This document shows, one piece after another, positions 7,505-49,781 of a stretch of DNA of 49,781 nucleotides (within the stretch, counting starts at the first letter, position 1; every line of letters begins with the position of its first letter). A program made the position numbers and the translations under genes. The stretch spans positions 1 to 49,781 of the forward strand of contig JAQBQL010000070.1 in assembly GCA_028287035.1 (NCBI GenBank), in the 5' to 3' direction. The notes below the pieces were generated by a model, which saw only the letters and a program-made list of their open reading frames with translations, did not search any database and was not told the DNA's origin. The stretch comes from Labilithrix sp. (GTDB taxonomy: Bacteria > Myxococcota > Polyangia > Polyangiales > Polyangiaceae).

Positions 7505-8722
7505 CTACTCGGCCCACATCTTCACGTTGTCCGCCGCTGCGAAGGAGAGGCGGTGCGCCTCGCTCCATTCCGGGTGGCGTACCACCACGTGGCCGTCCGA
7601 CAGCAGCGTGTGCTTCCAGTTGCGGCGCGGGGTTCCCGGGCGCAGCAGCTTCTCCTCGACGAGGTACGGGCCGGCGTCCTTCACGAACGCCTCCAGGCCC
7701 TCGATGCGCGTGACGCGGCCCTGGCCCTGCGCCCGCTTGAAGACGATTCCCGTGTTGTACTTGCGCGCCGTGCTCGCCTCGAATCGATTCCAGCAGGAGG
7801 CTCGTGCCCATTCGCGGAAGAGATCGATATCGGACGTGTAATTCATCTGATCGACGATGTGAGCGCCGCCCGGACGACACCCGATCTCGCCGAAGACGGC
7901 CTCTCCCTTGGGGGTGAGGAACCACTCCATGTGCGTGAAGCCCGTCCCCATGTTGAGCGCCGTGAGCACGTTCCGACCCAGCTCGACCCCGCCGGCGAGC
8001 TTCGGCTGGTACATGTCGCGGACGGTGATGATGACCGGGCTCACCGTCTCCACCGAGCGCATGACGAGCGGCTTCGGGAGGTACGCCGCGACGTTCTCGT
8101 AGGCGGGCTTGCCGTCGATGCTCACGGTGTCGAACGTGAACTCCTCGCCGTCGATGTACTCCTCGCAGCTCGCCTCGCCGACCCCGCGCATGAGCGCCAG
8201 GATCCCGTCGAGCTCGCGGGCGCTCTCCACCTTGTACGTGTCGGCGCTGCCGGCTCCCGCGATCGGCTTGACGATGAGCGGGTATCCGAGCTCCTCGGCG
8301 GCGGCGCGCACCTCGCTGTCGGTACGCACCCGTCGTGAGCGCGGCACGCGCAGCCCCGCCGCCGCGACGCGCTCCTTCATCAGCTGCTTGTCACGGAACC
8401 CGCGCACCGTGTCGACCGACATGCCGGGCATTCCCCAGCGCTCGCGGAGGCGCGCGGCCAGGATGACGAGGGGCTCCCAGTTGGCGAGACAGCGATCGAT
8501 GGAGCGGCCGCGGAGCCACGCGGAGACGCGATTCATCACGTCGTCCTCGTCCATGATGCGCGGCACGGCCAGGTAGTCGTGCAGGTACGGCTTCACTCGC
8601 GCCGGAAGCGCCTCGCGCGGCGTGTCGCCCACGCCGTAGACCTCGGCTCCCACCTCGGCGAGGCCGCGCGTGTACTCGATCATCTCGGGGGGATACAGCG
8701 GAGCGAGGAAGACGACGCGCAT
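7505..8722 (-). CDS. ATP-grasp ligase (THMEWF type)
   Basis: 405 residues, typical for a free-standing ATP-grasp ligase. The N-terminal ~100 residues form a Rossmann-like pre-ATP-grasp domain (MRVVFLAPLYPPEM). The ATP-grasp core follows, with the nucleotide-binding strand EELGYPLIVKPIAGAGSADTY and an EEYIDGEEFTFDT segment. The metal-binding end has THMEWF and then GEIGCRPGGAH, where Glu, Glu and Arg are the usual catalytic ligands. Family members join a carboxylate to an amine through an acyl-phosphate using ATP. It diverges from a GNAT gene across 107 bp and is a clear paralogue of the proteins at 9514 and 17995. Substrates unknown. Confidence 0.85.
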   Translation of the reverse strand: MRVVFLAPLYPPEMIEYTRGLAEVGAEVYGVGDTPREALPARVKPYLHDYLAVPRIMDEDDVMNRVSAWLRGRSIDRCLANWEPLVILAARLRERWGMPGMSVDTVRGFRDKQLMKERVAAAGLRVPRSRRVRTDSEVRAAAEELGYPLIVKPIAGAGSADTYKVESARELDGILALMRGVGEASCEEYIDGEEFTFDTVSIDGKPAYENVAAYLPKPLVMRSVETVSPVIITVRDMYQPKLAGGVELGRNVLTALNMGTGFTHMEWFLTPKGEAVFGEIGCRPGGAHIVDQMNYTSDIDLFREWARASCWNRFEASTARKYNTGIVFKRAQGQGRVTRIEGLEAFVKDAGPYLVEEKLLRPGTPRRNWKHTLLSDGHVVVRHPEWSEAHRLSFAAADNVKMWAE

Positions 8723-9513: not shown

Positions 9514-10734
9514 ATGCCCCGTAACGTCGTCTTCTGCGCGCCCTTCCCGATCGAGACCACCATGCGCTTCGTGCGCGCCGTCGCGCAGCTCGAGGACGTG
9601 CGCCTGCTCGGCGTCGTGACCCAGCCGCCCGAGGGCGCCGACGCGCGGCTCTACGACGACGTGGTGCGGGTCACGAACCCGCTCGATGCGCAGGACATCC
9701 TCGACGGCGTCGAGGTGCTGACGCGCCGGCACGGCAAGCCGACGCGCATCGTCGGCATCCTCGAGGCGCTCATGGTGCAGATGGCGATGGCGCGCGAGCG
9801 CTTCGGTGTGCCGGGCAGCGGCGCCCGCACCGCCGAGCTGTTCCGCGAGAAGGCCGCGATGAAGAACGCGCTCCGCAAGGCGGGCCTGCCGGTGGCGAAG
9901 CACCGGCTCCTCACCTCCGTGAGCGACGCCCACTCGTTCGCCGCCGAGGCCGGGTTCCCGATGGTGCTGAAGCCGCCGGCCGGCATGGGCGCGAAGGCGA
10001 CGTTCCGCGTCACCTCCGAGGACCAGCTCGTGAAGGCGGTGCACGGGATGCGCGTGTCGCCGCAGAGCCCGGTGCTCGCGGAGGAGTTCCTGCGCGGCCG
10101 CGAGTTCTCGATGGAGACCATCACGCTGAACGGCCAGCCGCGCGTCCACTCGATCTCGCATTACCTGCCGACGTGCCTCGAGGTGCTCGAGAACCCGTGG
10201 ATGCAGTGGGTGTGTCTCCTGCCGCGCGAGCTCGACGCGCCGTTCTACGAGGACGCGCGGAAGATGGGCTACGCGGCCATCCAGGCGCTCGGCCTCGACG
10301 ACGGAATGACCCACATGGAGTGGTTCCAGCGCGCCGACCGCAGCCTCGCCATCGGCGAGATCGCGCAGCGCCCGCCCGGCGCGAACATCTCACGGATGAC
10401 CGGCATCGCGAACGGCATCGATCCCTACCGCGCGTGGGCGCGAGCGGTGATCGACGGCGAGCTCGACGCGCCCTGGAAGCGTCAGACGGCGGTGGGCTGC
10501 GCGTTCCTCCGCGGCATGGGCCAGGGCCGGATCGTGAACGTCACCGGCGTCCACGAGGTGCACGAGGCGGTCGGCAACCTCGTCGCGGAGGCGAACCTGC
10601 CCAACGTCGGCGCGATGAAGTCCGACACCTACGAGGGTGACGGCTACGTCATCATCAAGCACGAGGACACCGAGGTCGTGAAGCGAGCGCTCAAGCTCGT
10701 CATCGAGACCGTCAAGGTCCACTACGCGAGCTGA
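9514..10734 (+). CDS. ATP-grasp ligase (THMEWF type)
   Basis: 406 residues, paralogous to the proteins at 7505 and 17995. A pre-ATP-grasp domain (RNVVFCAPFPIETT) is followed by the ATP-binding strand AGFPMVLKPPAGMGAKATF, the EEFLRGREFSMET segment, then MTHMEWFQRADRSLAIGEIAQ and RPPGANIS. The Glu in HMEW, the Glu in GEI and the Arg in RPPG match the magnesium and phosphate ligands of the family. GGGAGAGA just before the ATG serves as a ribosome site. It ends one base from the convergent cytochrome gene. It probably forms an amide or peptide bond on an unknown small molecule. Confidence 0.85.
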   Translation: MPRNVVFCAPFPIETTMRFVRAVAQLEDVRLLGVVTQPPEGADARLYDDVVRVTNPLDAQDILDGVEVLTRRHGKPTRIVGILEALMVQMAMARERFGVPGSGARTAELFREKAAMKNALRKAGLPVAKHRLLTSVSDAHSFAAEAGFPMVLKPPAGMGAKATFRVTSEDQLVKAVHGMRVSPQSPVLAEEFLRGREFSMETITLNGQPRVHSISHYLPTCLEVLENPWMQWVCLLPRELDAPFYEDARKMGYAAIQALGLDDGMTHMEWFQRADRSLAIGEIAQRPPGANISRMTGIANGIDPYRAWARAVIDGELDAPWKRQTAVGCAFLRGMGQGRIVNVTGVHEVHEAVGNLVAEANLPNVGAMKSDTYEGDGYVIIKHEDTEVVKRALKLVIETVKVHYAS

Positions 10735-11525: not shown

Positions 11526-11703
11526 GACGTCGAGTTCTATCAGCTCTGACGAAAGTTGGAATGTGCACGCGTTGCGCAGAGACGTACCTCGTGTAGGCCG
11601 CGAGCGTCGGGTGCCCGACGTGGTCGGCGCGGGTCTCACGACAATGGCGGGCGCGGGGGCGGGCAGCTTGACCGGAAGAGCCTGGGCGAGGTCTCTTGTG
11701 CCG

Positions 11704-14136: not shown

Positions 14137-14147
14137 GAGGAAGCACC

Positions 14148-15545
14148 ATGAATCGTCGCGATCTGCTCAAGCTCGGTGGCCTCACCGGAATCTCGCTCAT
14201 GCTGCCGTGGGCCGGCTCCTCCCAGGCGCGCGCCGACCAGACCACGTGGGGCGGCCCCTACTTCCTCCAGATGCACGCCGGCGGCGGCTGGGACCCGACC
14301 ATCTTCTGCGACGGCAAGCTGACCGCGGCGGGGCCGAATCCCGTCTACGAGAACCGGCTCGTGACCGCGGTCCAGGAGGTGAACGGAATCCCGGTTCCCG
14401 CCGCGAGCACCGACGGCAAGTTCTATCTCCGCAGCCAGGGCCTGCCCGTCGAGGACCCGCTCCACTTCTTCCAGAATGCCGGTCGCGATTTTCTCGTGTT
14501 CAACGGGGTCGACACGCAGACCAACAACCACGAGACCGGCGTGCAGTGCCTCGCGTGCGGTCACAACGACATCGAGCTCCCGGCGCTCGCCGCGCTCTTC
14601 GCCGGAATGGTGGCGAAGGACCGTGACGTGCCGATGGCGTTCCTCGCGGGCGGTCAATACAACCGCACCGGGGACGTCGTCGGCGTCTCCCGCTTTCCCG
14701 GCGACAAGGTCGGCCTCCTCGCCGATCCCTTCCGCGCCAATCCCAACGACGAAAAGCCGCTCCTCTCCGACGTGGCGACGCAGCGCATCCTGCAGCTGCG
14801 CGGCGAACGCATGGACCGGCTCCAGGCGAAGGCCACGCTACCCCGCGAGAAGCGGACGCTGAATGCGGTCCGCGACGCGATGCGCTCGGGCGGTGCGGTC
14901 AACCTGCTGAAGACCGTGGCGGGGGCGCCGGCGCCCGGCATCGAGACCTTCACGAACGATCTCTCGGAGGCGACGCGGCCGTACCTGACTGCCACGAACG
15001 GCGGCGGTCGGGCCCGCTTCCTGGATCTCGGCGCTCCGCTCGAGACCGTCCTCCGCTGCTTCCAGGCGGGCGTCTCGGCCTCGGCCACCTTCGAGCAGGG
15101 CGGCTTCGACACCCACGGCAACCACGACGTCAACCAGCAGGACGCGATGGGTAACTTCGTGGCGCGCCTCCGCTACGTGATGCTCCGCGCCGCGCAGCTC
15201 GGGATCAAGGACAAGCTCTACGTCCTCGTCACCTCCGACTTCGGCCGCACACCCAAGTACAACACCGGCAATGGCAAGGATCACTGGAACGTGACGTCCA
15301 CGCTGGTGTTCGGCCCCGGCATCCGTGGCGGCCGCGCCATCGGCAAGTCGGACGACGGACAGAAGTCGCTGCGCGTTGCCTCGGGCAACGTCTCGCAGGT
15401 GCTGCCCGACACCGATCCCGGCGGCGAGCGCATCCACGCCTCGCACATCCATCGCGAGCTGCGCCGCGTGCTCGGCGTCGACAAGGCGGACTTCATCAAC
15501 CAGTTCCCGCTGCCCGCCGGCACGTCCCTCCCGCTGCTCGGCTGA
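14148..15545 (+). CDS. DUF1501 family Tat-exported protein
   Basis: 465 residues. The ATG at 14148 follows GAGAGGAAG at a good distance; an in-frame codon at 14133 does not. The N-terminus NRRDLLKLGGLTG is a twin-arginine signal, cleaved near SQARA at residue ~29, so the protein is exported folded. The block TSDFGRTPKYN near residue 362, followed by a conserved GKDHW, is a hallmark of DUF1501, which belongs to the alkaline-phosphatase/sulfatase-like superfamily. HETGVQCLACGHN in the N-terminal third is another conserved patch. It is translated closely after the DUF1592-like gene and probably acts with it in the periplasm. Confidence 0.88.
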   Translation: MNRRDLLKLGGLTGISLMLPWAGSSQARADQTTWGGPYFLQMHAGGGWDPTIFCDGKLTAAGPNPVYENRLVTAVQEVNGIPVPAASTDGKFYLRSQGLPVEDPLHFFQNAGRDFLVFNGVDTQTNNHETGVQCLACGHNDIELPALAALFAGMVAKDRDVPMAFLAGGQYNRTGDVVGVSRFPGDKVGLLADPFRANPNDEKPLLSDVATQRILQLRGERMDRLQAKATLPREKRTLNAVRDAMRSGGAVNLLKTVAGAPAPGIETFTNDLSEATRPYLTATNGGGRARFLDLGAPLETVLRCFQAGVSASATFEQGGFDTHGNHDVNQQDAMGNFVARLRYVMLRAAQLGIKDKLYVLVTSDFGRTPKYNTGNGKDHWNVTSTLVFGPGIRGGRAIGKSDDGQKSLRVASGNVSQVLPDTDPGGERIHASHIHRELRRVLGVDKADFINQFPLPAGTSLPLLG

Positions 15546-15548
15546 GCG

Positions 15549-16388
15549 TCAGCTCGGCGGCAGGAGATCGTGGAGGCGCAGGATCTCGAGGTCCTCGCGG
15601 ATCTCGGCGGCGCTCTCGTAGTGGGCGCCGAGGTCGAGGCGCACGTAGCGCTTGCTGGCGCGCGGCGCGCCGAAGATCGTCGGACAGAGCGAGTGGGATC
15701 CCTCGTGGAAGAACCCGCGCTCGTCGCGGTCGTGGCCGTGGATGACGACGCGGAGGTCGAGGCCCGAATGCCACGAGACGCTCGCCAGCATGGGGATCGT
15801 CACGTGATCCGGCTGGCCGTAGCTCGTGAGCAGCGCCTGCATCATCGTGGCCTGCTCGTCGGTCATGTCGGAGATCTCGAGCGGGACGTCCTCGAGGTCG
15901 GCGAGCCGCTCGAACGTCGCGTCCGGGCAGCCGTGGGTGAGGAGCACGCCGCACGGCGCCGCGACCGCGAGCAGCGCGCGCCGGAAGAGGCCGCGTAGCC
16001 GCTCCACCTGCGCCGCGCCGAGGCCGGACTCGAGCTCCGTCACCTCGTCGGTGAAGAACTTCTGCGTGTGCGGGCCGCCGACGTGCCCGTGGTCGTGATT
16101 GCCGAGCACGAAGTGCACGTGGCCGGGCGCGCGCTCCTCGAGGGCGAGGATGCGGTCGACGATGGCCATCGAGCCGTCCTCGTAATCGTAGAGCGCGGGC
16201 GAGGTGCGCCGCGCCACCGGGTCGGGCGCATGGACGACGTCGCCGAGGATGACCCAGTGCGTCTCCGGCTCGACGACGCGCGACGCCTCGAAGAGCGCCT
16301 CGAGGCGCGCGAAGTCCTCGAGGTTGCCGTGCACGTCGGTGCTGACGAGAAGGACTCCCCGCGCCGGCAGCACGCGATGACGCTTCAT
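15549..16388 (-). CDS. Calcineurin-like metallophosphoesterase
   Basis: 279 residues. All five metal-binding motifs are visible: DVH (Asp18, His20), GDVVH (Asp50), GNHDH (residues 96-100), LLTHG, and VIHGHDRDE near residue 220. These bind two metal ions and hydrolyse phosphoester bonds. No signal peptide, so it is cytoplasmic. It lies 21 bp downstream of glgA on the same strand, so it is probably co-transcribed; a link to sugar-phosphate metabolism or nucleotide signalling is possible but not shown. Its 3' end meets the DUF1501 gene with a 3-bp gap. Confidence 0.88.
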   Translation of the reverse strand: MKRHRVLPARGVLLVSTDVHGNLEDFARLEALFEASRVVEPETHWVILGDVVHAPDPVARRTSPALYDYEDGSMAIVDRILALEERAPGHVHFVLGNHDHGHVGGPHTQKFFTDEVTELESGLGAAQVERLRGLFRRALLAVAAPCGVLLTHGCPDATFERLADLEDVPLEISDMTDEQATMMQALLTSYGQPDHVTIPMLASVSWHSGLDLRVVIHGHDRDERGFFHEGSHSLCPTIFGAPRASKRYVRLDLGAHYESAAEIREDLEILRLHDLLPPS

Positions 16389-16409: not shown

Positions 16410-17906
16410 TCAGCCGGGAACGAGCAAACCCGGCGGCCCGGAGCGGCCCGGCGCGACCATGCGGTAGACCTGCTCGTACGCCGCGACCCGGTTCTCCCAG
16501 CCGAAGCGACCGCGCATGCCGTTCGCCTGGATGCGGCGCCACTGCACGCGGTCCTTGCCGTTCCCCGTGCCCCAGACGCGCAGCGCCGCATCGAGGGCGA
16601 AGGTGAGGCCGCTCTCGTCGAAGTGCTCGAAGTAGAAGCCGTTGCCCGAGCCGCGCGCGGGGTCGAACATGGTCACGGTGTCGGCGAGGCCGCCCGTGCG
16701 GTGCACGATCGGCACCGTGCCGTAACGCAGGCTGTACATCTGGTTCAGGCCGCACGGCTCGTAGCGCGAAGGCATGAGGAACATGTCCGAGCCGGCCTCG
16801 ATGAGGTGCGCCATCGGCTCGCTGAACTGGCTGAGGTAGGCGACCTGCCTCGGGAACCGGCGCGCGAGCGACGCGAAGAACGCCGTGTACCTGTGCTCAC
16901 CGGTGCCGAGCACGACGAGCTGGGCGTTGCGCCGCGCGAGGATCCGCGGGAGCACGCTCTCGCAGAGGTCGAAGCCCTTCTGCCACGCGAGACGGGAGAC
17001 GATGCCTAGGACCGGCACCTCCGGGTCGTACGGGAGCCCGGCGGCCTGGAGGAGCGCCTGCTTGTTGTGCTCCTTGCCCTCGAGCTGATCGAGCGAGAAG
17101 CGAAAGGGGATGAGCGCGTCCTTCTCGGGGCTCCACTCGCTCTCGTCGATGCCGTTGAGGATGCCGAAGAGCACGTTCTCGCGGTCGCGCAGGAACGGGT
17201 CGAGACCGACGCCGTGCTCGGCGGTCTGGACCTCGCGTGCATACGTCGGGCTCACCGTGGTGATGGCGTTCGCGTAGAGGATCCCGTGGAGGAGGAAGTT
17301 GAGGCGTCCCTCCTGGAGCTGATCCTGGTGCAGGTGCTGGACCGCGGGGCCGAGCCCCACCTCGGCGACGACCTTCGCGTCGAACGCGCCCTGGTGTCCG
17401 ATGTTGTGGATCGTCAGCACGGTGCGCGTCTGCGCGAAGAGCTTGTCCCACGCGAAGAGCGTCCGCAGGAGGAGCGGGACGAGCGCGGTCTGCCAGTCGT
17501 TCACGTGGATCACGTCGGGGCGGAAGCCGAGCCGCTGGCAGATGATGAGCGACGCCCAGCTGAGGACCGCGAAGCGCAGGTGCTCGTCCGCGTCCTCGGT
17601 GTAGATGCCCTGGCGACCGTAGAGGCCGGCGCAGCGCACGAGGTAGACCGGGACCGTGGTGCCGGGGAGCTGCGTCACGTGCACCGAGAACACGATCCGG
17701 TGCGGGCCGAGGTCGAGCGCCGCCTCGCGGATGACCACCTCCGCGTCGTCCACGCCCTTGATCCGCGCGTACATGGGCATCACGATGCGCACGTCGTGGC
17801 CGCGCTCCTTCACCGACAGCGCGCGCGGAAGGGCCGCCGACACGTCGCCGAGCCCCCCGGTCTTGGCAAACGGCGCCACCTCGGAGGCCACGAAGAGGAC
17901 GTTCAC
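16410..17906 (-). CDS. glgA: Glycogen synthase (ADP-glucose type)
   Basis: 498 residues, the usual GlgA length. The start is the GTG at 17906, which begins the canonical VNVLFVASEVAPFAKTGG; a longer in-frame ATG start at 17948 would add 14 unrelated residues. The KTGGLGDV loop binds ADP-glucose, and the C-terminal SRYEPCGLNQMYSLRYGT block with VHRTGGLADTV is the GT-B (GT5) catalytic and nucleotide site. It adds glucose from ADP-glucose to alpha-1,4-glucan. It diverges from the ATP-grasp operon across 88 bp and precedes a phosphoesterase. Confidence 0.95.
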   Translation of the reverse strand: MNVLFVASEVAPFAKTGGLGDVSAALPRALSVKERGHDVRIVMPMYARIKGVDDAEVVIREAALDLGPHRIVFSVHVTQLPGTTVPVYLVRCAGLYGRQGIYTEDADEHLRFAVLSWASLIICQRLGFRPDVIHVNDWQTALVPLLLRTLFAWDKLFAQTRTVLTIHNIGHQGAFDAKVVAEVGLGPAVQHLHQDQLQEGRLNFLLHGILYANAITTVSPTYAREVQTAEHGVGLDPFLRDRENVLFGILNGIDESEWSPEKDALIPFRFSLDQLEGKEHNKQALLQAAGLPYDPEVPVLGIVSRLAWQKGFDLCESVLPRILARRNAQLVVLGTGEHRYTAFFASLARRFPRQVAYLSQFSEPMAHLIEAGSDMFLMPSRYEPCGLNQMYSLRYGTVPIVHRTGGLADTVTMFDPARGSGNGFYFEHFDESGLTFALDAALRVWGTGNGKDRVQWRRIQANGMRGRFGWENRVAAYEQVYRMVAPGRSGPPGLLVPG

Positions 17907-17994
17907 GCGCGCCTCTATACCAAAGCTCGTGTGACAATCGAGCCCCATAGCGCTCGCCCGGACCGAGCGACGCTGCTAGGTTGCGCCCGCCACC

Positions 17995-19224
17995 GTGGAC
18001 GTCATCCTCGTCGAGCCGTGTTTCCCCGCCAATCAACGTGAATTCGCCCGCGCGCTGCACGCGGTGGGGGCACGCGTCATCGGCATCGGCGAGCGAGACA
18101 AGTCGTCGCTCGACGACGGCCTCCGGCACTGGCTGACCCACTACGAGCAGATCGGCAACGTCACCGACGTCGGCCAGCTCGCGCGCGCCGTGGAGCACGT
18201 CCAGCGGCTACCGACCGTGAACGTCCAGCGCCTCGAGACCACGATCGAGTCGCACGTGATGGCGGCCGCCAAGGTGCGCGCCCACCTCGGGATCCCCGGG
18301 ACCACCGAGCGCACCGCCTTCCTGTGCCGCGACAAGCCGGCGATGAAGGACGCGCTCCGCAACGCGGGCGTCCCGTGCGCGGCGTCGATCGGCAGCTCCG
18401 ACCGCGCGGAGATCCGCGCCTTCGCGGAGGAGGTCGGCTTTCCCCTCGTCGTGAAGCCGCGCGACGCGGCCGGCGCCTCGGGCACGTACCGCTGCGACAG
18501 CCTGCGGGATCTCGAGCAGGCGCTCGTCAGCTGCGGCGTCGAGCAGGGCAAGAGCGTCGCCGTCGAGGAGTTCATCGAGGGCCACGAGGGCTTCTATGAC
18601 ACCCTGAGCATCGGCGGCCGCGTCGCTCACGACTTCGTCTCGCACTACTATCCGAATGTCCTCGACGCGATGCGCACGCGGTGGATCTCCCCGCAGTTCA
18701 TCGCCACGAACCGGCTCGACGCGGTCGACGCGTACGCCGAGGTGAAGGCGATGGGCCAGAAGGTCATCGAGACCCTCGGCATCGGCACCTCGGCCACGCA
18801 CATGGAGTGGTTCTATGGACCGAAGGGCCTGAAATTCAGCGAGATCGGCTGTCGTCCGCCGGGCGTGCGCGCCTGGGACCTCTATGCCGCGGGCAACGAG
18901 ATCGACATCTACCGCGAGTGGGCAATGGCGATCGTGCACGGCACGACGGGCCAGAAGCTCACGCGCCGCTACGCCGCGGGAATCATCGCGCTGCGTCCCG
19001 AGTGCGACGGGCACATCCGCGGCTACGACGGCTCCGAGGAGGTGTGGCGCCGCTTCGGCGACTTCATCATCGACAGCCATCTCCCCGCGCCGGGCACGCC
19101 CACCCAGCCCATCTCCGCCGGCTACATGGCGAACGCGTGGCTTCGCATGAAGCACCACGACTACGACACGCTGCGCGGCATGATGGACTTCGTGGGTCAG
19201 ACCCTGAAGGTCCGGGCCTCGTGA
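17995..19224 (+). CDS. ATP-grasp ligase (THMEWF type), first gene of operon
   Basis: 409 residues from a GTG at 17995. A Rossmann-like N-domain (MDVILVEPCFPANQREFARA) precedes the ATP-grasp core: EEVGFPLVVKPRDAAGASGTY binds nucleotide, EEFIEGHEGFYDT follows, then THMEWFYGPKGLKFSEIGC with RPPGVRAW supplies the metal and phosphate ligands. It is the third paralogue in this window. The stop codon overlaps the GTG of the next gene (GTGA, 4 bp), which indicates translational coupling. It likely activates a carboxylate as an acyl-phosphate and couples it to an amine; the substrates are unknown. Confidence 0.88.
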   Translation: MDVILVEPCFPANQREFARALHAVGARVIGIGERDKSSLDDGLRHWLTHYEQIGNVTDVGQLARAVEHVQRLPTVNVQRLETTIESHVMAAAKVRAHLGIPGTTERTAFLCRDKPAMKDALRNAGVPCAASIGSSDRAEIRAFAEEVGFPLVVKPRDAAGASGTYRCDSLRDLEQALVSCGVEQGKSVAVEEFIEGHEGFYDTLSIGGRVAHDFVSHYYPNVLDAMRTRWISPQFIATNRLDAVDAYAEVKAMGQKVIETLGIGTSATHMEWFYGPKGLKFSEIGCRPPGVRAWDLYAAGNEIDIYREWAMAIVHGTTGQKLTRRYAAGIIALRPECDGHIRGYDGSEEVWRRFGDFIIDSHLPAPGTPTQPISAGYMANAWLRMKHHDYDTLRGMMDFVGQTLKVRAS

Positions 19225-20219
19225 TCCGCGGCGATCTCCCGGCGGTTGTCCTGCTCGGCGCGCAGCGGTACGAGCCGACCCTCGGCGACGCGATCGACGA
19301 GCTCGGCATCCAGGGCAAGGTCGCGACCATCACCGCCGGCTGGCAGGAGCGCGAGGACGACGACGAGGATCTGCGCGAGCACCTGAAGGGCCGCGCCGTG
19401 AACCTCGCCCTGCATGCGCGCGGCGAGGAGGTGTTCCGGAACGACCCGGAGCTCGCCGCGGCGCACCGCGACCGCCAGACCATCCTGCGCCATCGCCAGG
19501 ACTTCTACCGGGTGCGCCTCGAGCACGCGCTCGATGCCCAGCGTGTCATCGACCAGCGCGCCGCGCCGTTCGACATCCTCGAGGACGAGGCGCGCAGCTC
19601 GATCGACGCCATCCGCAACATCGACGCGCTCCACCTGGAGCGCTGCGCGATGGACCGTCGCGACTTCGACGCGCGCTTCCGCCCCGATCGCCCCGAGCTC
19701 GCGCGTCACCGGGCCGAGCTCGCCGCGATCGTCGCCGACTGCGACGCGATCGCGATCGCGGGCGGCCACGTCGCCTCGCTGCTGAACCGCCTCCGCCTGT
19801 TCGGGTTCGAGGAGCTCGCGCGCGGCAAGACCATCTTCGCCTGGTGCGCGGGCGCGATGGCGATAAGCGAGCGGGTGGTCCTCTTCCACGACGCGCCGCC
19901 GCAGGGCCCCGGCTCGGCCGAGGTCATGGATGCGGGCCTCGGGTTCGTGGGCGACGTCGTCGTCCTCCCCCAGCCCGAGTTCCGCCTCCGTCTCGGTGAC
20001 CGCCAGAAGCTCAAGGTGCTCGCGCGGCGCTTCGCTCCCGCGATGTGCCTCGTCATGCCGGCGCGCTCGCGCGTCACGTGGCTGCGCACCGGTCCCACCG
20101 ACCTCGTCGGCGCGTTCGCGATCCGCGCGGACGGCACCCATTCCCTCGAGTCGCCGCCCCCGAGCGGCGCGATGAAGGCGGCGGCGCATCTCGCGTACAT
20201 GCCGCCGCGCACCCCATGA
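19221..20219 (+). CDS. Class-I amidotransferase/peptidase S51-like protein with altered active site
   Basis: 332 residues from a GTG overlapping the previous stop. The N-terminal strand (AVVLLGAQRYEPTLGDAI) and ATITAGWQERE resemble cyanophycinase/peptidase E proteins, followed by a long, highly charged helical insert (~60-165). Then come DAIAIAGGHVASLLNRLR and the nucleophile elbow FAWCAGAMAIS with Cys209 where S51 enzymes have Ser (usually SAGA). The later segment that carries the S51 His in a HFxxRGR context reads PQPEFRLRLGDRQKL, so that His appears missing. It could be a Cys-type amidase or a non-hydrolytic relative. Its position between ligases suggests it acts on an amide-linked product. 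Confidence 0.65.
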   Translation: MIRGDLPAVVLLGAQRYEPTLGDAIDELGIQGKVATITAGWQEREDDDEDLREHLKGRAVNLALHARGEEVFRNDPELAAAHRDRQTILRHRQDFYRVRLEHALDAQRVIDQRAAPFDILEDEARSSIDAIRNIDALHLERCAMDRRDFDARFRPDRPELARHRAELAAIVADCDAIAIAGGHVASLLNRLRLFGFEELARGKTIFAWCAGAMAISERVVLFHDAPPQGPGSAEVMDAGLGFVGDVVVLPQPEFRLRLGDRQKLKVLARRFAPAMCLVMPARSRVTWLRTGPTDLVGAFAIRADGTHSLESPPPSGAMKAAAHLAYMPPRTP

Positions 20220-21370
20220 CCAGCTCGCCGCTCTCCATCCACAAGCTCGTGAAGGCCTCGCCCGACGGCGCGAAGGTCGACGCCTTTCTGCAGCGCGAGG
20301 GCCGCTCGTTCCCGCTCGTCGAGGGGCCGCACGCGACGTTCGTCTGGCGCGGCGACGCCGAGGCGGTGACGCTCCGTCACTGGATCTTCGGGCTCGAGTC
20401 GGACAGCTCGCTGAAGCGAGTGCCCAATACCGATCTCTGGTATCTGGTGCTCGACATCCCGTCGAAGTCGCGGGTCGAATACAAGTTCGAGATCCATCAC
20501 CGCGGTGGCGGCAGCCAGTGGATCGAGGATCCGCTGAATCCCAATCGCGCCCGCGACCCGTTCGGCGCCAACTCGGTCTGCCAGGGCGAGGGCTACGAGG
20601 TCCCCGACTGGGTGAATCCCGACCCCGAAGCGCGGCCCGGATTGCTCGAGCCGTTCTCGTTCAACTCGCGCACCTTCGGCGGCATGCGACACGGCATGAT
20701 CTACCTGCCGGCCCGCTTCCGCAAGACGCGCCAGTATCCGCTGCTCGTCGTCCACGATGGCAGCGACTACGTGAACTTCGCGAGCATGAAGACCGTGCTC
20801 GACAACCTGATCCATCGCCTCGAGATCCCGGATCTGGTGGTGGCGTTCACCGACTCTCCGGATCGCCTCCGCGAGTATGCCAACGACGAGAACCACGCGC
20901 GGTTCCTCACCGAGGAGCTGCTCGCGGATCTCACGAGCCGTCTGCCCATCATCGATCGTCCGCAGGCACGCTGCCTGATGGGCGCGAGCTTCGGAGCGGT
21001 CGCCGCCTTCTCGACGGCGGTACGCTACCCGGGCGTGTGGGGCCGGCTCCTGCTGCAGTCCGGCTCGTTCGCCTTCACCGACATCGGCACCCGCAACCGC
21101 CGCGGACCGCTCTTCGACCGCGTCGTCGAGTTCGTGAACCAGGTGCGTGACGAGCCGAGCGCCGTCAGCGAGCGCATCTTCATGAGCTGCGGCGTGTACG
21201 AGTCGCTCATCTACGAGAATCGCTCGCTCGTTCCGCTCCTCGACTCCACCGGAATGCAGGTGAAGTTCGTCGAGGCGCGCGACGGTCACAACTGGGAAAA
21301 CTGGCGCGATCGGCTGCGTGAGGGGCTCTCGTGGCTCTTCCCGGGGCCCCTCATGTTCGTCTACGAGTAG
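20216..21370 (+). CDS. Fes-like alpha/beta-hydrolase esterase
   Basis: 384 residues from the ATG at 20216, which overlaps the previous stop as ATGA. The N-terminal ~150 residues (FVWRGDAEAVTLRHW, then PNTDLWYLVLDIPSKSRVEYKF) look like the E-set/CBM48-type domain of enterochelin esterases. The catalytic domain starts with YPLLVVHDGSDY, has the nucleophile elbow MGASFGA (Ser258) and ends with RDGHNWENWRDRL (His358). This is the Fes/esterase D architecture, which hydrolyses ester or amide bonds of peptide-like compounds. No signal peptide is seen, so it is cytoplasmic. It may release or cyclise a product of the flanking ATP-grasp enzymes. Confidence 0.85.
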   Translation: MTSSPLSIHKLVKASPDGAKVDAFLQREGRSFPLVEGPHATFVWRGDAEAVTLRHWIFGLESDSSLKRVPNTDLWYLVLDIPSKSRVEYKFEIHHRGGGSQWIEDPLNPNRARDPFGANSVCQGEGYEVPDWVNPDPEARPGLLEPFSFNSRTFGGMRHGMIYLPARFRKTRQYPLLVVHDGSDYVNFASMKTVLDNLIHRLEIPDLVVAFTDSPDRLREYANDENHARFLTEELLADLTSRLPIIDRPQARCLMGASFGAVAAFSTAVRYPGVWGRLLLQSGSFAFTDIGTRNRRGPLFDRVVEFVNQVRDEPSAVSERIFMSCGVYESLIYENRSLVPLLDSTGMQVKFVEARDGHNWENWRDRLREGLSWLFPGPLMFVYE

Positions 21371-21382
21371 CAAAGGCCCGCC

Positions 21383-22627
21383 ATGGCAGAAGTCGTCAGG
21401 AACATCGGTCTCTCGCTCGGCGCAGACATCTGCTGGCCGCTCTGCTTCGAAGCGCTCATGAAGAAGCTGGACCTGCGCATCCCCGCCGAGGACGGCTCGG
21501 GCGACGTGATCCGCTTCGAGGTCGAGCGGGTGTTCATCGAGCCCTTCGATCTGCGCCAGGGCTGCAAGTACGACGTCGTCGTGGACCGGCTCACGCACTG
21601 GTACAACACGAGCCGCGAGTGGATAAAGAAGTCCATTCTCATGGACGGGCTCTACGTGTTCAACAACCCGTGGAGCGTGCAGGCCAACGAGAAGCACACG
21701 TCGTACTGCGCGATGATGGCGCTCGGAATGCCGATTCCGGATACCTGGATGATCCCGCCGAAGAGCTACGAGCCTTCGCCGGATCTCAAGCCAACGCTCT
21801 CGCGCTACGCGAAGCTCTTCGATGTCCGCAAGATCGGCGACCGCATCGGCTGGCCGATGTTCATGAAGCCGTACGACGGCGGCGGCTGGCGCGCGGTGAC
21901 CAAGGTGGACGACGCGGCGCAGGTCTACAAGGCCTACGACGAGAGCGGCAAGGCGGTCATGCACCTCCAGGCGGCGGTGACCGGCTTCGACCGGTTCGTC
22001 CGCTGCATCGGCTTCGGCGCGCAGACCCACTGCGTGCTCTACGACCCGGACGCGCCGCTCCACGACCGTTACACGATGAAGCGCGACTTCATCTCGGCCG
22101 CGGAAGAGGAGCATCTCCGCAAGATCACGCTGACCATCAACGCCTTCTTCGGGTGGGAGTTCAACTCGTGCGAGTCGCTCCGCAAGGACGGCACCTGGTA
22201 CCCCATCGACTACGCGAACCCGTGCCCGGACTCGCAGGTCACCTCGCTCCACTGGCACTTTCCGTGGATGGTGAAGGCGTACGTGCGGTGGTCCGTCTTC
22301 TGCGCCGCGACGAAGCGCAAGATGCGGATGAACCAGGACTGGTCTCGCTTCTACGAGGTCGCGAAGCTCGATCTGTCGTTCGAGGAGAAGCTCGATCGCT
22401 ACGCAGCGATCGCCGACGCGCAGTTCGAGACCGCGAAGTTCGAGGAATTCTGCGCCAAGCACCTGGCGCAGCTCGACGCCGTCGCGAACGAGTTCTTCGC
22501 GAGCAGCGAGGCGAAGGACGCAGTCCGGCAGAAGGTCGCGGCGCTCTTCCCGCCGCACGAGATCGAGCGCTTCACGGAGCTCTTCTGGGGCCGCATCCAG
22601 GACTGGCGCGCCTCGGGCGCCCCCTGA
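21383..22627 (+). CDS. ATP-grasp ligase, RimK-like, last gene of operon
   Basis: 414 residues, 12 bp behind the esterase, with AAAGG as ribosome site. It differs from the three THMEWF-type paralogues. The N-domain ends in YVFNNPWSVQANEKHTSY, then MMALGMPIPDTW marks the core start, GWPMFMKPYDGGGWRAVTKV binds ATP, and TINAFFGWEFNSCESL with PIDYANPCPDSQV supplies the metal ligands in RimK/D-Ala-D-Ala-ligase style. A long helical C-terminal tail (~300-414) is an extra feature. It probably adds an amino acid to a carboxylate. Its stop codon touches the stop of the convergent lipoprotein gene. Confidence 0.85.
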   Translation: MAEVVRNIGLSLGADICWPLCFEALMKKLDLRIPAEDGSGDVIRFEVERVFIEPFDLRQGCKYDVVVDRLTHWYNTSREWIKKSILMDGLYVFNNPWSVQANEKHTSYCAMMALGMPIPDTWMIPPKSYEPSPDLKPTLSRYAKLFDVRKIGDRIGWPMFMKPYDGGGWRAVTKVDDAAQVYKAYDESGKAVMHLQAAVTGFDRFVRCIGFGAQTHCVLYDPDAPLHDRYTMKRDFISAAEEEHLRKITLTINAFFGWEFNSCESLRKDGTWYPIDYANPCPDSQVTSLHWHFPWMVKAYVRWSVFCAATKRKMRMNQDWSRFYEVAKLDLSFEEKLDRYAAIADAQFETAKFEEFCAKHLAQLDAVANEFFASSEAKDAVRQKVAALFPPHEIERFTELFWGRIQDWRASGAP

Positions 22628-23488: not shown

Positions 23489-26434
23489 CTAGAAGCTCGT
23501 GGTGATGGTGGCGAGCACCGTGCGTCCGTTCTGGACGAGGGTTCGCTGACGGAACTCGCCGCTCGGCACGACGGAGTACTTGAAGTCGCCGAGGTTGTAC
23601 GCGCCGATGGCGTACCGCGTGCTCATGCGCTCGATCTCGCCGGACAGGACGAGGTCCCAGATGACCGCCGGGTCGGTGGTGCGCTGCGGAGCGTCGGTGA
23701 CGAGCTCGTTGCGGTCGGGCCGCGGGCCCTCGATCGACACGCGCGTCATTGCCATGATGGTGCGGCCGATGATCGGGACCGCTCCCTTGAAGGAGGCGAG
23801 GTGCTCGATCGAGTTGGGGACGTCGCGCAGCGTCACGTCATTGATGTACCGCGCCTTCGAGTACGAATACGTGGCGCTCATCATCCAGCCCTGGCGCCAC
23901 TCGCGGCGCACCTCCGCCTCGGCCCCGAGCACGAGGACCTCGGCGGGCGAGTTGCTGTACTGCACGATGCCGCTGTTCGGCGCGGTCTCGTTGAGGCGAA
24001 CGAGGTCCTGCACGAGGTTCGTGTAGCCGGCGACGAGCCCGGTGACCGTCTGGGAGAAACGGTGCGAGTACTCGATCTCGGCCGAGTAGATCTGCTCGGG
24101 CTTGAGGGACGCCGGCGGCAGCTGGAAGAGCGCCGTGTAGTGCAGCTCGTAGACGCTCGGCGCGCGGAAGGCCTTCGCCCCCATCACCTTGATGTTGCCG
24201 CCGTCGTACGGCTTGAAGATCACCGCGAGCCGCGGGTTGAGCGCCGCGGCGACATCGAACTCCGGCAGGTTCGAGTAGTAGTCGAGCCGGGCGCCGGCCA
24301 CGAGCTTGAGCCGCGGCGTTGCCGTGACGTCCGCATTCACGTAGCCGGCTCCGACGGTGAACGGATCGTTCCGGCCCGCGCCGCCCGCATCGTCGAGAAG
24401 GTAGGCGCCGGCCTCGCTCTCGCCGACCTGGTGGGTCTGGAAGTGGCGGATCAGCTCGCCGCCGACGGTGAGGCGGAGCGCGTTCGACGGAGTGAAGACG
24501 AAGCGCTGCTCGAGCCCGCCCCACCGACCACGGTACGAGTCATGCGAGGTGCCGCCGCTGGCGGGCGCGTACGGCGAGGTGCCGTCGAAGTCGTACATGT
24601 TCACGTGCGCGCGCGTGAGCGACTGGATGCTCTGCGTGAGCTGCGGCTCGAAGCGGCCCTCGACCATCCCTCGCGTGTCGGCGAAGCGGGCGCTGCGGTC
24701 GCCGAAGATCGTGTCGTACTCGCCGGTCGGCAGGTACTTCTTCCGCGAGTTCAAGAACCACTGCAGCGTGAACGCCTTGTACCAGAGCCGGCCGGTCACC
24801 ATCCCGCCGTGCTGGCGGTCGGCGTCGCGCGCGTTGCCGTCGGTGGGGCGGCCGTTCGCGCCGAGCGGCGCGTTGGGGTCGCGCGGGTCGGACTGGTACT
24901 CGGGGAAGAAGAAGTCCCGCCCGGCGCCCTGCTGGCCGCTCACCGTCGCCCAGAACCCCGCGTCGGGCGAGAAGCGAACGTTGGCCGTCGCGCGCGCCTT
25001 CGTGATGCCGTACTCGAAGGTGCCGAGCGAGGCCTCCCCGTGCGTCGGCTGGTTGTGCGAACGCGTCACGAGGTTGATGACGCCGAAGAACGCGCTCGAT
25101 CCGTACAGCACCGATCCGGGGCCGCGCACCACCTCGATGCGCTCGATGTCGTCGATGTCCACGCGTGCGTCGGTGCCGACGTAGGACGACCAGATGTAGT
25201 TGTCGTTCATCGGCTGCCCGTCGAGGAGGACGAGCACCCGGTTGCCGTAGTCGCCGGGACGCGAGAACCCGCGGAAGCCGGCGGTCGTGTAGCTGCGGTC
25301 GTCCGACAGGTAGATGCCGCGGATCCCGCGGAGCGCCTCGCCGAGCGTGGGGTAGCCCATGGCGCGCAGCTCCTGGATCGAGATGATCGAGACCGACGCC
25401 GGCGCGTCCTCGACCGACTCCGTGACGCGCGAGGCCGCGCTGACCTCCTCGACGAACGCGAGCTGCGCCTCGATCTTGGTCTCCTTGCGGGAGACGTCGA
25501 CGACCTGGGAGACCGAGCGATAGCCCTGCTGCGAGACGACGACCGTGTGCTTGCCGACCGGCACGTTGAGGACGGTGGGCGTGAAGCCGACCGCGTGACC
25601 GTCGACGGTGACGAGCGCGTCGCGGATGTCGGCGCTGACGACGACCGCCCCCGTCTGCGAGGAGAGACGCCCGCGCACCATGGTGATCTGGTTGGCGGGG
25701 ATGTCGGTCGTGACCTCGCCCGTCTGGAAGCCCTCCTTCGAGAAGAAGAACGTGTGGCGTCCCGGCGGCACCGGGGCCGAGCAGGGAACCGTGCACACGA
25801 CCGGCGTGGTGTCGTCGTCGACGCGCACGACCGCGCCGGGCTCGCCCTCGAGCCGCGCCGTGCCGAGGATCTGCTTCAGCCTCAGGGTGACGGTCTGCTC
25901 GGCTCCCGCCTTCAGCACGAGCGGCTCGGACTCGGCCGGCTCGTAGCCCTGCTTCTCGACGATCACGCGGCGGCGTCCGTCGGGCAGACCGAGCGTGCGC
26001 GGGGTCGTGCCGCGGGGGCCGAGGTCCCGGCGGTCGAGGTAGACGGTGGCGCCGGGCGGGTCCGTCTCGACCTTGAGGATCGCGACTGCCGGGCTGATAC
26101 GCTGCAGGGCGTCCTCCACGCGCCGCTTCAGCTGGGGGCTCGTCTCGCCTTCGAGCGCGAGCACGTAGTAGCGGTACGCGTCCGGCGAGCGCCCGAGCTG
26201 CTCGTAGGTGCGGGCGATGTTGAAGAGGACGTTCTTGTTGGGGACGAGCCGGTTCGACGAGAGGAAGTGCTCGAGCGCTCCCTTGAAATCCTTGACCTCG
26301 TAGCGCTCGGCGCCGAGCTGGAACTGGAGATCCGCCTCGTCGGCGAGGTCGTCGGCACGCGCCGGGACGGCGCAGAGCATCGTGCCCAGGGCGACCGCCA
26401 TGGACAACAGGAAGAGCCGGTGCGTGAGCCTCAT
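23489..26434 (-). CDS. TonB-dependent receptor with N-terminal TPR and three PEGA domains
   Basis: 981 residues from the ATG at 26434, which begins a signal peptide cleaved near ARA at residue 27; an ORF start at 26509 adds no signal. Residues ~30-110 are TPR-like helices (ALEHFLSSNRLVPNKNVLF). Three PEGA-type beta domains lie at about 118-187, 190-257 and 262-326, each with a GxHTVxVxxxGY or related pattern. The plug (~330-450) includes VEDAPASVSIISIQELRAMG and VRGPGSVLYGSSAFFGVINL, and the rest is the outer-membrane beta-barrel. It imports a substrate using TonB energy. The substrate is unknown, and the normal TonB box is not obvious. Confidence 0.9.
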   Translation of the reverse strand: MRLTHRLFLLSMAVALGTMLCAVPARADDLADEADLQFQLGAERYEVKDFKGALEHFLSSNRLVPNKNVLFNIARTYEQLGRSPDAYRYYVLALEGETSPQLKRRVEDALQRISPAVAILKVETDPPGATVYLDRRDLGPRGTTPRTLGLPDGRRRVIVEKQGYEPAESEPLVLKAGAEQTVTLRLKQILGTARLEGEPGAVVRVDDDTTPVVCTVPCSAPVPPGRHTFFFSKEGFQTGEVTTDIPANQITMVRGRLSSQTGAVVVSADIRDALVTVDGHAVGFTPTVLNVPVGKHTVVVSQQGYRSVSQVVDVSRKETKIEAQLAFVEEVSAASRVTESVEDAPASVSIISIQELRAMGYPTLGEALRGIRGIYLSDDRSYTTAGFRGFSRPGDYGNRVLVLLDGQPMNDNYIWSSYVGTDARVDIDDIERIEVVRGPGSVLYGSSAFFGVINLVTRSHNQPTHGEASLGTFEYGITKARATANVRFSPDAGFWATVSGQQGAGRDFFFPEYQSDPRDPNAPLGANGRPTDGNARDADRQHGGMVTGRLWYKAFTLQWFLNSRKKYLPTGEYDTIFGDRSARFADTRGMVEGRFEPQLTQSIQSLTRAHVNMYDFDGTSPYAPASGGTSHDSYRGRWGGLEQRFVFTPSNALRLTVGGELIRHFQTHQVGESEAGAYLLDDAGGAGRNDPFTVGAGYVNADVTATPRLKLVAGARLDYYSNLPEFDVAAALNPRLAVIFKPYDGGNIKVMGAKAFRAPSVYELHYTALFQLPPASLKPEQIYSAEIEYSHRFSQTVTGLVAGYTNLVQDLVRLNETAPNSGIVQYSNSPAEVLVLGAEAEVRREWRQGWMMSATYSYSKARYINDVTLRDVPNSIEHLASFKGAVPIIGRTIMAMTRVSIEGPRPDRNELVTDAPQRTTDPAVIWDLVLSGEIERMSTRYAIGAYNLGDFKYSVVPSGEFRQRTLVQNGRTVLATITTSF

Positions 26435-26608
26435 CGAGACCTCGGGACAGCGCGTGTGATGTGAATGCGACGTTAACAGGGCGTCTGCGGGGCCGACAAA
26501 CTCTTCCATCGGACCGCCCGCGTCCTACCAGGAATGTTCTTCCCCCGGCGGAGAGCGTGGATTTTCGCGCGAAGTGCGCGAGAATGTTCGCCTCGAGAGG
26601 GAAGCGCC

Positions 26609-48280: not shown

Positions 48281-49027
48281 ATGTTCGAGACGTCTCGCTG
48301 GTACTCGTCGCGCCTGTCGTGCGACGTCACGTTGAACCGCTGGGGTCACGCCGGTCAGCCCGTGCTCATGTTCCCGACCGCGGGCGGTGACGCGGGCGAG
48401 ATCGACCGCTTCCTCATGGTGAAGGTGCTCGAGCCGCTGCTCGCCGCCGGACGGATCAAGCTCTACTCGTGCGACAGCGTCGCGGGGCGGGTGTGGTTCA
48501 ACAAGGAAGGCTCCCCCGAGCACCGCATGTGGATGACCCACCAGTTCCACCAGTACGTGAAGCACGAGGTGGCGCCGGCCATCCGCACCGACTGCCGGAC
48601 CCCCGATATCGGCATCTGGGCGGCAGGCTCCTCGATCGGCGCCTTCCACGCGGTGGCGGTGACGTGCCGGTTTCCGGATCTCTTCCATCGTGCGCTCGGG
48701 ATGAGCGGCACGTACGATCTGATGCGGTTCATCGAGCGCCCCGAGCCCACCGACTACTTCTTCGTGTCCTCGCCCCTCCACTTCGTCCCCACGCTGGCCG
48801 GCCTGCACCTCGACGTGCTGCGCACCCGGTACATCCATCTCGCCTCCGGCGAGGGCAAGTGGGAGGACATCAACGAGAGCTTCCGCATGGGGAAGGTCCT
48901 CGGCGACATGGGCATCCCCAACTACGTCGAGTCGTGGGGCAAGCAGATGGATCACGACTGGGTGACGTGGCGCGCGAAGCTGCCCGGCATCCTCGACGCG
49001 TGGACGAAGCCCGAGACCGAGAGCTGA
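48281..49027 (+). CDS. Fes-like/esterase D-type alpha/beta-hydrolase
   Basis: 248 residues, lacking the N-terminal E-set domain of the esterase at 20216. VLMFPTAGGDAGEIDRF is the strand and oxyanion region, AAGSSIGAFH gives the nucleophile elbow (Ser118), and KQMDHDWVTWRAKL the histidine (His225). The His-Asp-Trp-x-x-Trp-Arg signature is shared with the esterase at 20216 (His-Asn-Trp-x-x-Trp-Arg). It is followed 6 bp later by a GCS2-type ligase. It probably cleaves or transfers an ester or amide of the ligase product. Confidence 0.82.
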   Translation: MFETSRWYSSRLSCDVTLNRWGHAGQPVLMFPTAGGDAGEIDRFLMVKVLEPLLAAGRIKLYSCDSVAGRVWFNKEGSPEHRMWMTHQFHQYVKHEVAPAIRTDCRTPDIGIWAAGSSIGAFHAVAVTCRFPDLFHRALGMSGTYDLMRFIERPEPTDYFFVSSPLHFVPTLAGLHLDVLRTRYIHLASGEGKWEDINESFRMGKVLGDMGIPNYVESWGKQMDHDWVTWRAKLPGILDAWTKPETES

Positions 49028-49033
49028 ACCAAA

Positions 49034-49781
49034 GTGGCCATCCAGGACGACGTCGACAACACGCACGAGCACAAGACGACGACCGGCGAGCTGGTCGGCG
49101 ACGAGCGGCGCCGCTTCATGCGGACCCTGCTCATCGAGCTGCGGGCCCTCGAGCGCATGCTGAGCGAGGGCATGTTCGAGCGCGGCGTCGCGCGCATCGG
49201 CGCCGAGCAGGAGATGTTCCTGGTGGACCGCGAGTACCACGTGTCGCCGTCGGCCCTCGACGTGCTGAAGCGCCTCGACGACCCGCACTTCACGACCGAG
49301 CTCGGCCTCTTCAACCTCGAGATGAACGCCGACCCGCAGCCGTTCGCGGGCAAGGGGCTCGCGCAGCTCCAGGGCCAGCTCGAGACGCTCTACGCCAAGG
49401 TGCAGAAGGCGGCCGCCGAGCAGGACGTCCAGCCGGTGCTCGCCGGCATCCTGCCCACCATCGGCAAGGCCGACCTCTCGCTGAAGAACATGGTCCCGAA
49501 CCCGCGCTACCTCACGCTGAACCGCGTGATGACCGCGGCGCGCGGCGAGGGCTACGACATCTCGATCAAGGGGCTCGACGAGCTCGTCGCCAAGCACGAC
49601 TCCCTCATGTTCGAGGCGTGCAACGCGAGCTTCCAGGTGCACCTGCAGGTCGCGGATCCGGACCGCTTCGGGCACGCCTACGACATCGCGCAGCTCTTGC
49701 TCGCGCCGGCGCTGGCGCTCGGCACCAACTCGCCGACCCTCTTCGGCAAGCGGCTCTGGGCCGAGACGCGCATCGCGCTCT
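49034..49781 (+). CDS. GCS2-type carboxylate-amine ligase (partial, 3' end off window)
   Basis: 249 codons from a GTG at 49034, open at the right edge. VARIGAEQEMFLVDREYHV (Glu58, Glu60) is the N-terminal acidic motif of the glutamate-cysteine ligase 2 family, which binds metal and ATP. GLFNLEMNADPQPFAGKGL and SNPRYLTLN-type blocks and FQVHLQVADPDRF continue the fold. The family joins a carboxylate to an amine with ATP, for example glutamate to cysteine, but many members have other substrates. The close esterase and the other ligases in this window point to a specialised product rather than glutathione. Confidence 0.85.
   Translation, partial: MAIQDDVDNTHEHKTTTGELVGDERRRFMRTLLIELRALERMLSEGMFERGVARIGAEQEMFLVDREYHVSPSALDVLKRLDDPHFTTELGLFNLEMNADPQPFAGKGLAQLQGQLETLYAKVQKAAAEQDVQPVLAGILPTIGKADLSLKNMVPNPRYLTLNRVMTAARGEGYDISIKGLDELVAKHDSLMFEACNASFQVHLQVADPDRFGHAYDIAQLLLAPALALGTNSPTLFGKRLWAETRIAL

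Follow-up and report, generated by a model that had tools for sequence, protein, structure and literature searches.

Conserved bacterial gene module of ATP-grasp ligases and esterases with a possible link to glycogen metabolism

A 49,781-nucleotide stretch of DNA of Labilithrix sp. (contig JAQBQL010000070.1; hereafter the window) carries four closely spaced genes, termed Aw, B, C and D, which encode two ATP-grasp ligases, a cyanophycinase-fold protein and a Fes-like esterase. What might such a combination of enzymes be for, and do the four genes act on their own? The analysis strongly supports their assignment to a larger module of at least seven genes (Aw, Am, Ap, B, C, D and f3), joined in many lineages by a glycogen synthase gene (GlgA) and optionally by two further genes, f5 and f6. 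The features of the window are listed in Table 1.

Table 1. Position and predicted products of genes of the module, and of one neighboring gene, in the window
Feature	Position	Strand	Description
Am	7505..8722	-	second L-amino-acid-ligase-type ATP-grasp, 405 aa
Ap	9514..10734	+	third L-amino-acid-ligase-type ATP-grasp, 406 aa, divergent from Am
GlgA	16410..17948	-	divergent from Aw; member of the module-linked clade
Aw (gene 1)	17995..19224	+	L-amino-acid-ligase-type ATP-grasp, 409 aa, GTG start
B (gene 2)	19221..20219	+	peptidase-S51/cyanophycinase-fold protein, 332 aa, GTG start inside a longer open reading frame
C (gene 3)	20216..21370	+	Fes/CE1-like serine esterase with N-terminal Enterochelin_N/CBM-like domain, 384 aa, ATG start
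D (gene 4)	21383..22627	+	RimK-fold ATP-grasp ligase, 414 aa, ATG start
TonB-dependent receptor	23489-26509	opposite to D	second gene after D; PEGA-domain stretches, TPR-like repeats
f3	48281..49027	+	second, smaller esterase (GxSxG), 248 aa
f5	49034..49781	+	GCS2-type glutamate-cysteine-ligase-like; frame open to the window edge, where it is cut

The open reading frame (ORF) calls gave exactly the architecture described in the initial annotation, i.e. four genes on the forward strand with 4-bp stop/start overlaps between Aw and B (GTGA, 19221-19224) and between B and C (ATGA, 20216-20219), and a 12-bp spacing between C and D (21370 to 21383). The conservation of this neighborhood was analyzed in 80 loci chosen solely for encoding a D relative. 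These were the best of 559 confirmed D stretches in genome contigs, a choice that favors close relatives and includes some near-duplicates, and many of the loci are cut by contig ends. These loci represent Myxococcota as well as records that carry the titles Gammaproteobacteria, Acidobacteria, Gemmatimonadota, Planctomycetota, Acidimicrobiia/Ilumatobacter, Eisenbacteria and alphaproteobacterial genera; the taxon titles of metagenome-bin records can be wrong.

Gene C was found on the same strand within 1 kb 5′ of D in 78 of the 80 loci, and B (counted by tblastn) within 5 kb in 70. The order B-C-D, consecutive among the module genes (other genes may intervene), was observed in 70/80 loci, and Aw-B-C-D in 39/80. 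Since C and B recur beside D in loci picked only for a D relative, the Aw-B-C-D arrangement is far beyond chance. Thus, the two distinct ATP-grasp ligases, the S51-like protein and the Fes-like hydrolase do constitute a conserved unit, and the neighborhood is kept.

This unit has further companions. The f3 gene lies on the same strand within 1 kb 3′ of D in 51 of the 80 loci (73 of which have at least 1.5 kb of sequence there) and in the flanks of 58. The flanks also contain Aw (53 loci), GlgA (35), f5 (31), Ap (27), Am (26) and f6 (20), and at least one glycogen gene (GlgA, GlgB, GlgC, GlgP or GlgX) is present in half of them (40/80). When the comparison was restricted to the 30 loci with at least 9 kb on both sides of D, the counts were 29 for C, 28 for B, 25 for f3, 23 for Aw, 17 for GlgA, 14 each for Am and f5, 13 for Ap and 10 for f6.

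The distribution of the genes was examined in 235 Myxococcota genomes. Strong D matches (E-value of 1e-60 or better) were detected in 71 of them, B and Aw in 73 each, Am in 71 and Ap in 73. The thresholds were chosen after the lists had been viewed; of the 81 genomes with a D match at E ≤ 1e-20, 10 fell short of the D threshold and were dropped, and one B genome out of 74 (E 7e-19) was likewise set aside. The 71 D-positive genomes all carried B and f3, while 70 had Aw, 70 GlgA, 68 Ap and 67 Am, and all of D, B, Aw, Am, Ap and f3 were found together in 65 Myxococcota genomes. The 164 genomes lacking D contained B in 2 cases, Aw in 3, Am in 4, Ap in 5 and f3 in 14 (the f3 search, at E ≤ 1e-30, takes in other esterases too). 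Fisher's exact test of the co-occurrence of B and D gave p = 1.4e-58, a value that ignores kinship and is not a true probability.

A stronger indication than this value is that the genes are separated and reunited in different ways. In 30 of the 71 D-positive genomes, over 10 kb lay between B and D or the two were on separate contigs; 28 of these were cases of different contigs, and since the draft contigs are short, some of the pairs may in fact be near each other. A survey of 20 regions from 15 genomes revealed rearranged operons, namely Am<>Ap-GlgA-Aw-B-C-D-f3 (L089), B-C-D-f3-Aw-Am (L086), Am-Aw<>B-C with D-f3-Ap approximately 9 kb further on (L081), and B-C-D-f3 with Aw-Ap<>Am on another contig (L097/L098).

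In line with the four-gene operon of the initial annotation, the genes might form a stand-alone unit for a secondary metabolite, unrelated to glycogen. The gene overlaps in the window agree with this, as does the consecutive one-strand order Aw-B-C-D in nearly half of the loci. However, the phyletic pattern of the four extends to Am, Ap and f3, which rejoin them in other genomes, and the identity of at least 61% between D of the window and its relatives in all 80 loci resembles core metabolism rather than a patchy secondary metabolite. We therefore consider a self-contained four-gene operon quite improbable. The extent initially proposed was too narrow, as it left out Am, Ap, f3 and f5 and the link to the divergently oriented GlgA, and the last of these omissions changes the possible purpose of the pathway.

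In Gammaproteobacteria the module is rare, since D was detected in only 1 of 229 sampled genomes, the very genome on which the sample was centered; in the family to which this genome belongs, Aw was found in 18 of 81 sampled genomes. No relatives of D were found on plasmids. In Labilithrix luteola, the locus tags of the D and B genes are separated by a single tag. Named relatives of B and D among the matches listed are annotated as hypothetical protein, uncharacterized protein or ATP-grasp domain-containing protein.

The GlgA encoded next to Aw in the window scored 516.8 bits against TIGR02095 (cut-off 328.45) and contains both the KTGGL and the EPCGL motif, which we take to be active-site motifs of GlgA. 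In the listed ORF, 14 residues precede the conserved N-terminus, so the true start is probably the GTG at 17906, which would set the divergent gap between GlgA and Aw at about 88 bp. Aw positions from 24 Myxococcota genomes were compared with those of GlgA; 18 had GlgA within 600 bp, at distances of 12-188 bp. The number 18 is a lower bound, as the comparison covered 24 of the 73 genomes with Aw.

Phylogenetic analysis of 74 GlgA sequences placed all 36 module-linked proteins in a single clade of 39 (support 100/100, inner branch 0.33), which spans Myxococcota, Pseudomonadota, Planctomycetota and an acidobacterium. The linked sequences were taken mostly from the 80 loci and from module-bearing regions, and the unlinked ones were hand-picked; the duplicates L125, L133 and L089 were left out, and L123 and L132, located beside Aw, were counted as linked. 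Three members of the clade bear the label unlinked: L127 (approximately 9 kb from Aw) and L131 (16 kb), both on the contig of the module, and L110, on another contig. The 35 sequences outside the clade comprise 31 unlinked GlgAs and four that are close to the module but adjoin GlgB or GlgC or represent a second copy. Within the clade, KTGGL is conserved in 37/39 and EPCGL in 39/39 proteins, and a signature residue, Glu122, is present in 39/39 as compared with 2/35 of the other GlgAs.

Several genomes carry one GlgA of each kind, and several module-bearing Myxococcota genomes have two or three GlgAs. In four pseudomonadotan genomes (G003, G004, G006 and G012) the module-type protein is the sole GlgA at E ≤ 1e-40. 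Other glycogen genes were identified nearby in some loci: GlgC, GlgP, GlgX, GlgA and GlgB surround the module in L060, and likewise in L061 (GlgC not in view), GlgB adjoins Am in L055, and GlgC is located near the module in L053. GlgC, GlgB and GlgX were over their NCBIfam cut-offs. From the clade, the adjacency to Aw, the signature residues and the genomes with a sole GlgA, we conclude that, in the lineages concerned, GlgA of the 100/100 clade is part of the module.

These observations bear on the main rival of a glucan-linked product, i.e. a soluble, osmolyte- or cyanophycin-like compound of peptide character for storage or stress. The ligases would synthesize this compound and B, C and f3 would degrade it, with the compound and glycogen as merely co-regulated carbon/nitrogen reserves and no covalent link between them. 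The ligases and esterases do stay together without a nearby GlgA in Acidimicrobiia and at other loci, and cyanophycinase and pseudo-CphB are the nearest structures of B. On the other hand, a co-regulated GlgA would not be expected to form a clade of its own and to accompany the module across several phyla, nor to be so close to Aw (12-188 bp) in 18 genomes of Myxococcota. A soluble reserve or osmolyte of this kind is nevertheless a serious, if tentative, explanation.

What reactions could the module catalyze? Aw scored 36.3 bits against PF02222 (cut-off 27); Ap also exceeded the cut-off of this family, and Am those of PF18130 and PF02786. The closest solved relatives of Aw by sequence are the L-amino acid ligase 4wd3 and BacD, and 4wd3 is also the best solved relative of Ap. 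The BacD equivalog cut-off of 850 bits is far above the scores of all three proteins (Aw 34, Am 36.4, Ap 33.7). Seven positions, presumably catalytic by their ATP-grasp roles, are invariant in all sequences compared (33 for Aw, 24 for Am and 25 for Ap).

Aw, Am and Ap share 29-33% pairwise identity (Aw-Am 31%). Identity to their own orthologues amounts to 58-81% for Aw, 45-83% for Am (24 orthologues, drawn from Myxococcota, Pseudomonadota and other loci) and 40-71% for Ap (20 orthologues), and these counterparts show only 28-37% identity to the other two paralogues. In each case the match to the counterparts from other phyla is much better than the match of those counterparts to the remaining paralogues, which indicates three separate ligases kept together across Myxococcota and Pseudomonadota.

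The window copy of D had no Pfam match, its sequence matches to solved structures were weak, and Dala_Dala_lig_C was matched by 19 of 43 relatives at E ≤ 0.05. Its assignment as a RimK-type ATP-grasp therefore follows from the predicted fold, for which RimK is the best match. Beyond the RimK-aligned part, residues ~311-410 form a mostly helical C-terminal region of about 100 residues, and the score against NCBIfam rimK_fam was 19.9 bits (cut-off 143.4). Among eight positions checked for presumed catalytic roles, seven are invariant in 43 sequences. In four gammaproteobacterial loci (L060, L061, L068 and L071) the module is adjoined by f11, an IQCH/PGM1-type (PGM1/BesA-type) ATP-grasp, which adds a fifth ligase in these genomes; the L068 copy (14019-15560) matched the model of BesA, an L-propargylglycine-L-glutamate ligase, with E 2.6e-48, under its cut-off.

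The similarity of D to RimK, together with the closeness of the graspetide ligase PsnB in the same fold comparison, would suit ligases that tag a protein or a ribosomal peptide, with B, C and f3 removing or maturing the tag. However, ORF clustering, with a minimum of 90 residues that would miss short precursors, revealed no conspicuous conserved gene for a precursor or target, and among solved proteins Aw and Ap are closest to ligases acting on small molecules, the L-amino acid ligases. A tagging function thus appears very improbable.

Gene 2 had been described as class-I amidotransferase-like. Its predicted fold is instead that of peptidase S51/cyanophycinase, with a long helical insertion at residues ~64-172; in the Foldseek search, the glutaminase Pdx2 appeared first at rank 21 (E 0.2). 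The nucleophile motif of class-I glutamine amidotransferases is of the GxCxGxQ type, and the nucleophile stretch of B, AWCAGAMA, contains no Q. By sequence, B gave chance-level matches to solved structures, and PF03575 (Peptidase_S51) scored 17.6 bits with the window copy, under the cut-off of 23.9; 37 of 41 B sequences matched this family at E ≤ 0.05 (best 1.3e-8).

A catalytic serine is the hallmark of S51 peptidases. At the corresponding position the window protein has Cys209, and the 41 sequences contain Ser in 33 cases, Cys in 5 (including the window), Thr in 2 and Gly in 1, a switching that is unusual for an active-site residue. In view of Cys209 and the varied nucleophile, B was assigned to the S51 fold and not classed as a serine peptidase. 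The protein is probably an amidase in most lineages and may be non-catalytic in some.

Protein C matched PF00756 (Esterase; 65.3 bits, cut-off 22) and PF11806 (Enterochelin_N; 27.7 bits, cut-off 27.1). Its profile relatives include the enterochelin esterase 2b20, feruloyl esterases and one CE1 enzyme with an N-terminal carbohydrate binding module (CBM). Ser258, Asp356 and His358, which we take to be active-site residues, are invariant in 28/28 sequences. CBM_20 was detected in 10 and CBM_48 in 3 of the 28 at E ≤ 0.05 (window copy CBM_20, E 0.04). The smaller esterase, f3, is 48-73% identical to 29 relatives, with Ser118 and His225, likewise presumed active-site residues, invariant in 30/30; it matched no solved structure by sequence. 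The presumed catalytic residues are thus kept in the four ligases and both esterases. No signal peptide was apparent by eye in the translations of the module proteins, which suggests that the module is cytosolic.

The match of C to enterochelin esterase models, and the presence of a TonB-dependent receptor two genes away, could point to a siderophore pathway in which C is a true Fes and the receptor imports the iron chelate. This reading is hardly credible: C scored 108.3 bits against the NCBIfam enterochelin-esterase equivalog, which has a cut-off of 222, and the receptor was matched in just 2 of the 80 loci. It was rejected because the receptor is not conserved beside D; no siderophore gene was present among the identified conserved neighbor families.

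The f5 frame at the window edge is 74% identical over 240 residues to f5 of another locus (L017:12303-14270), which matches PF04107 and PF00571. f5 is a GCS2-type ligase fused to CBS domains, and in some loci it is followed by f6, encoding an AstE/AspA-type deacylase. Together, f5 and f6 may be a small unit of their own, which in Myxococcota and Ilumatobacter joins the module. Between Ap and GlgA, the forward strand of the window carries a pair of genes (11524-15545) with a 4-bp overlap and with PSCyt3/PSD4 (DUF1588/DUF1592) and DUF1501 domains, neither of which had a tblastn match in the 80 loci. Eight proteins compared with defense-system models gave no match, and Rfam and tRNA scans of the window found nothing.

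Taken together, we favor, with a probability of roughly 0.45, a cytosolic module for the synthesis and turnover of a peptide-like compound with amide linkages, which is tied to alpha-glucan (glycogen) metabolism and possibly attached to the glucan. The initial proposal that the locus makes and processes an amide-linked small molecule thus holds as the probable role of the conserved unit; the gene set is larger than proposed and is linked to GlgA. We infer the following chemistry. Aw, Am, Ap and D, on the basis of their folds and conserved residues, would activate carboxylates as acyl phosphates and form successive amide (or ester) bonds. The dedicated GlgA, whose association with the module was observed, would move glucose from a sugar nucleotide onto the peptide-like unit; alternatively, this unit may be attached to a glucan made by GlgA. 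C and f3, given their active-site residues and relatives, would release or rearrange ester-linked groups, with C perhaps recruited via its CBM/Enterochelin_N-like domain. B, by its fold, may hydrolyze or sense the peptide part, the variable nucleophile making its activity uncertain.

Several observations weigh against this interpretation. GlgA is also present in 92 of the 164 Myxococcota genomes without D, D-positive genomes such as G061 and G066 have GlgAs elsewhere that belong to other clades, and several Myxococcota regions (e.g. L084-L087) have no GlgA in view. The co-occurrence counts are uncorrected for kinship. Three Acidimicrobiia loci hold Am, Ap, Aw, C, D, f3 and f5 with neither B nor GlgA nearby; B was not found in the genomes of these loci, in a search run without a positive control, and the sole genome of this group tested (G014) gave no TIGR02095 match at E ≤ 1e-40. 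Aw was detected in 14 of 20 checked genomes, which had a D locus without Aw or served as controls, and was missing from 6 at E ≤ 1e-100, reflecting either incomplete bins or real absence. Thr in two and Gly in one of the 41 B sequences speak against an essential hydrolase, and the CBM signal in C is weak. In light of the Acidimicrobiia loci without a nearby GlgA and the result for G014, GlgA is not universal, and the coupling of the module to glucan is well supported without being general.

A more specific version, which we regard as unlikely, is an alpha-glucan with covalently bound amino acids or short peptides, some of them held by ester bonds to sugar hydroxyls: the ligases would attach these groups, GlgA would extend the glucan, and the esterases and B would strip it. 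ATP-grasp enzymes are known to form both amide and ester bonds, as in D-Ala-D-Lac ligases and microviridin ligases. Aminoacyl esters on sugar hydroxyls are therefore chemically plausible, and they would account for the presence of two esterases. Glycogen is generally held to consist of glucose alone; if the proposal were true, several bacterial phyla would possess either a polymer that stores both carbon and nitrogen or a glycogen primed by peptide. More broadly, a GlgA subfamily that travels with ligases, esterases and a cyanophycinase-fold protein would point either to glycogen in a modified form or to an unknown glycogen-associated metabolite, and the module provides a concrete gene set for asking what ATP-grasp/esterase neighborhoods make.

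All of the enzymes of the module belong to known superfamilies. No description of the combination was found in the open literature searched, including passages of PMC2922099 and PMC8939145, and no paper in this literature contains both GlgA and ATP-grasp as words. A survey of ATP-grasp amidoligase operons was reportedly published by Iyer and colleagues in 2009; since this work, the likeliest to mention such a module, is outside the literature covered, the combination is considered undescribed only provisionally. The operons surveyed there and those of N-acetylglutaminylglutamine-type peptide osmolytes reportedly combine ATP-grasp ligases with hydrolases, are predicted to make peptides, and are of the same general kind as the present module; we know of no glycogen synthase partner in them.

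With respect to the individual components, the module ligases share the ATP-grasp domain and the conserved, presumably catalytic residues of L-amino acid ligases (4wd3, BacD, BL00235), but the module keeps three distinct paralogues together and Aw scores far under the BacD equivalog cut-off. D differs from the RimK and LysX-ArgX family in its extra C-terminal residues and in scoring under the rimK_fam cut-off. As compared with the S51 proteins cyanophycinase, pseudo-CphB and peptidase E, B has its helical insertion, and in the close relatives of the window copy Cys replaces Ser; furthermore, cyanophycinase accompanies cyanophycin synthetase, whereas B adjoins L-amino-acid-ligase-type ligases. 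C has the esterase domain, N-terminal domain and active-site Ser and His of Fes and of CE1 esterases with an N-terminal CBM, but it lies below the Fes equivalog cut-off and the TonB receptor of the window is not conserved beside it. Finally, the module GlgA shares the KTGGL and EPCGL motifs with bacterial GlgA (GT5) proteins and exceeds the TIGR02095 cut-off, and it differs from them in forming a separate 100/100 clade with signature residues, whose genes adjoin Aw, Ap or Am.

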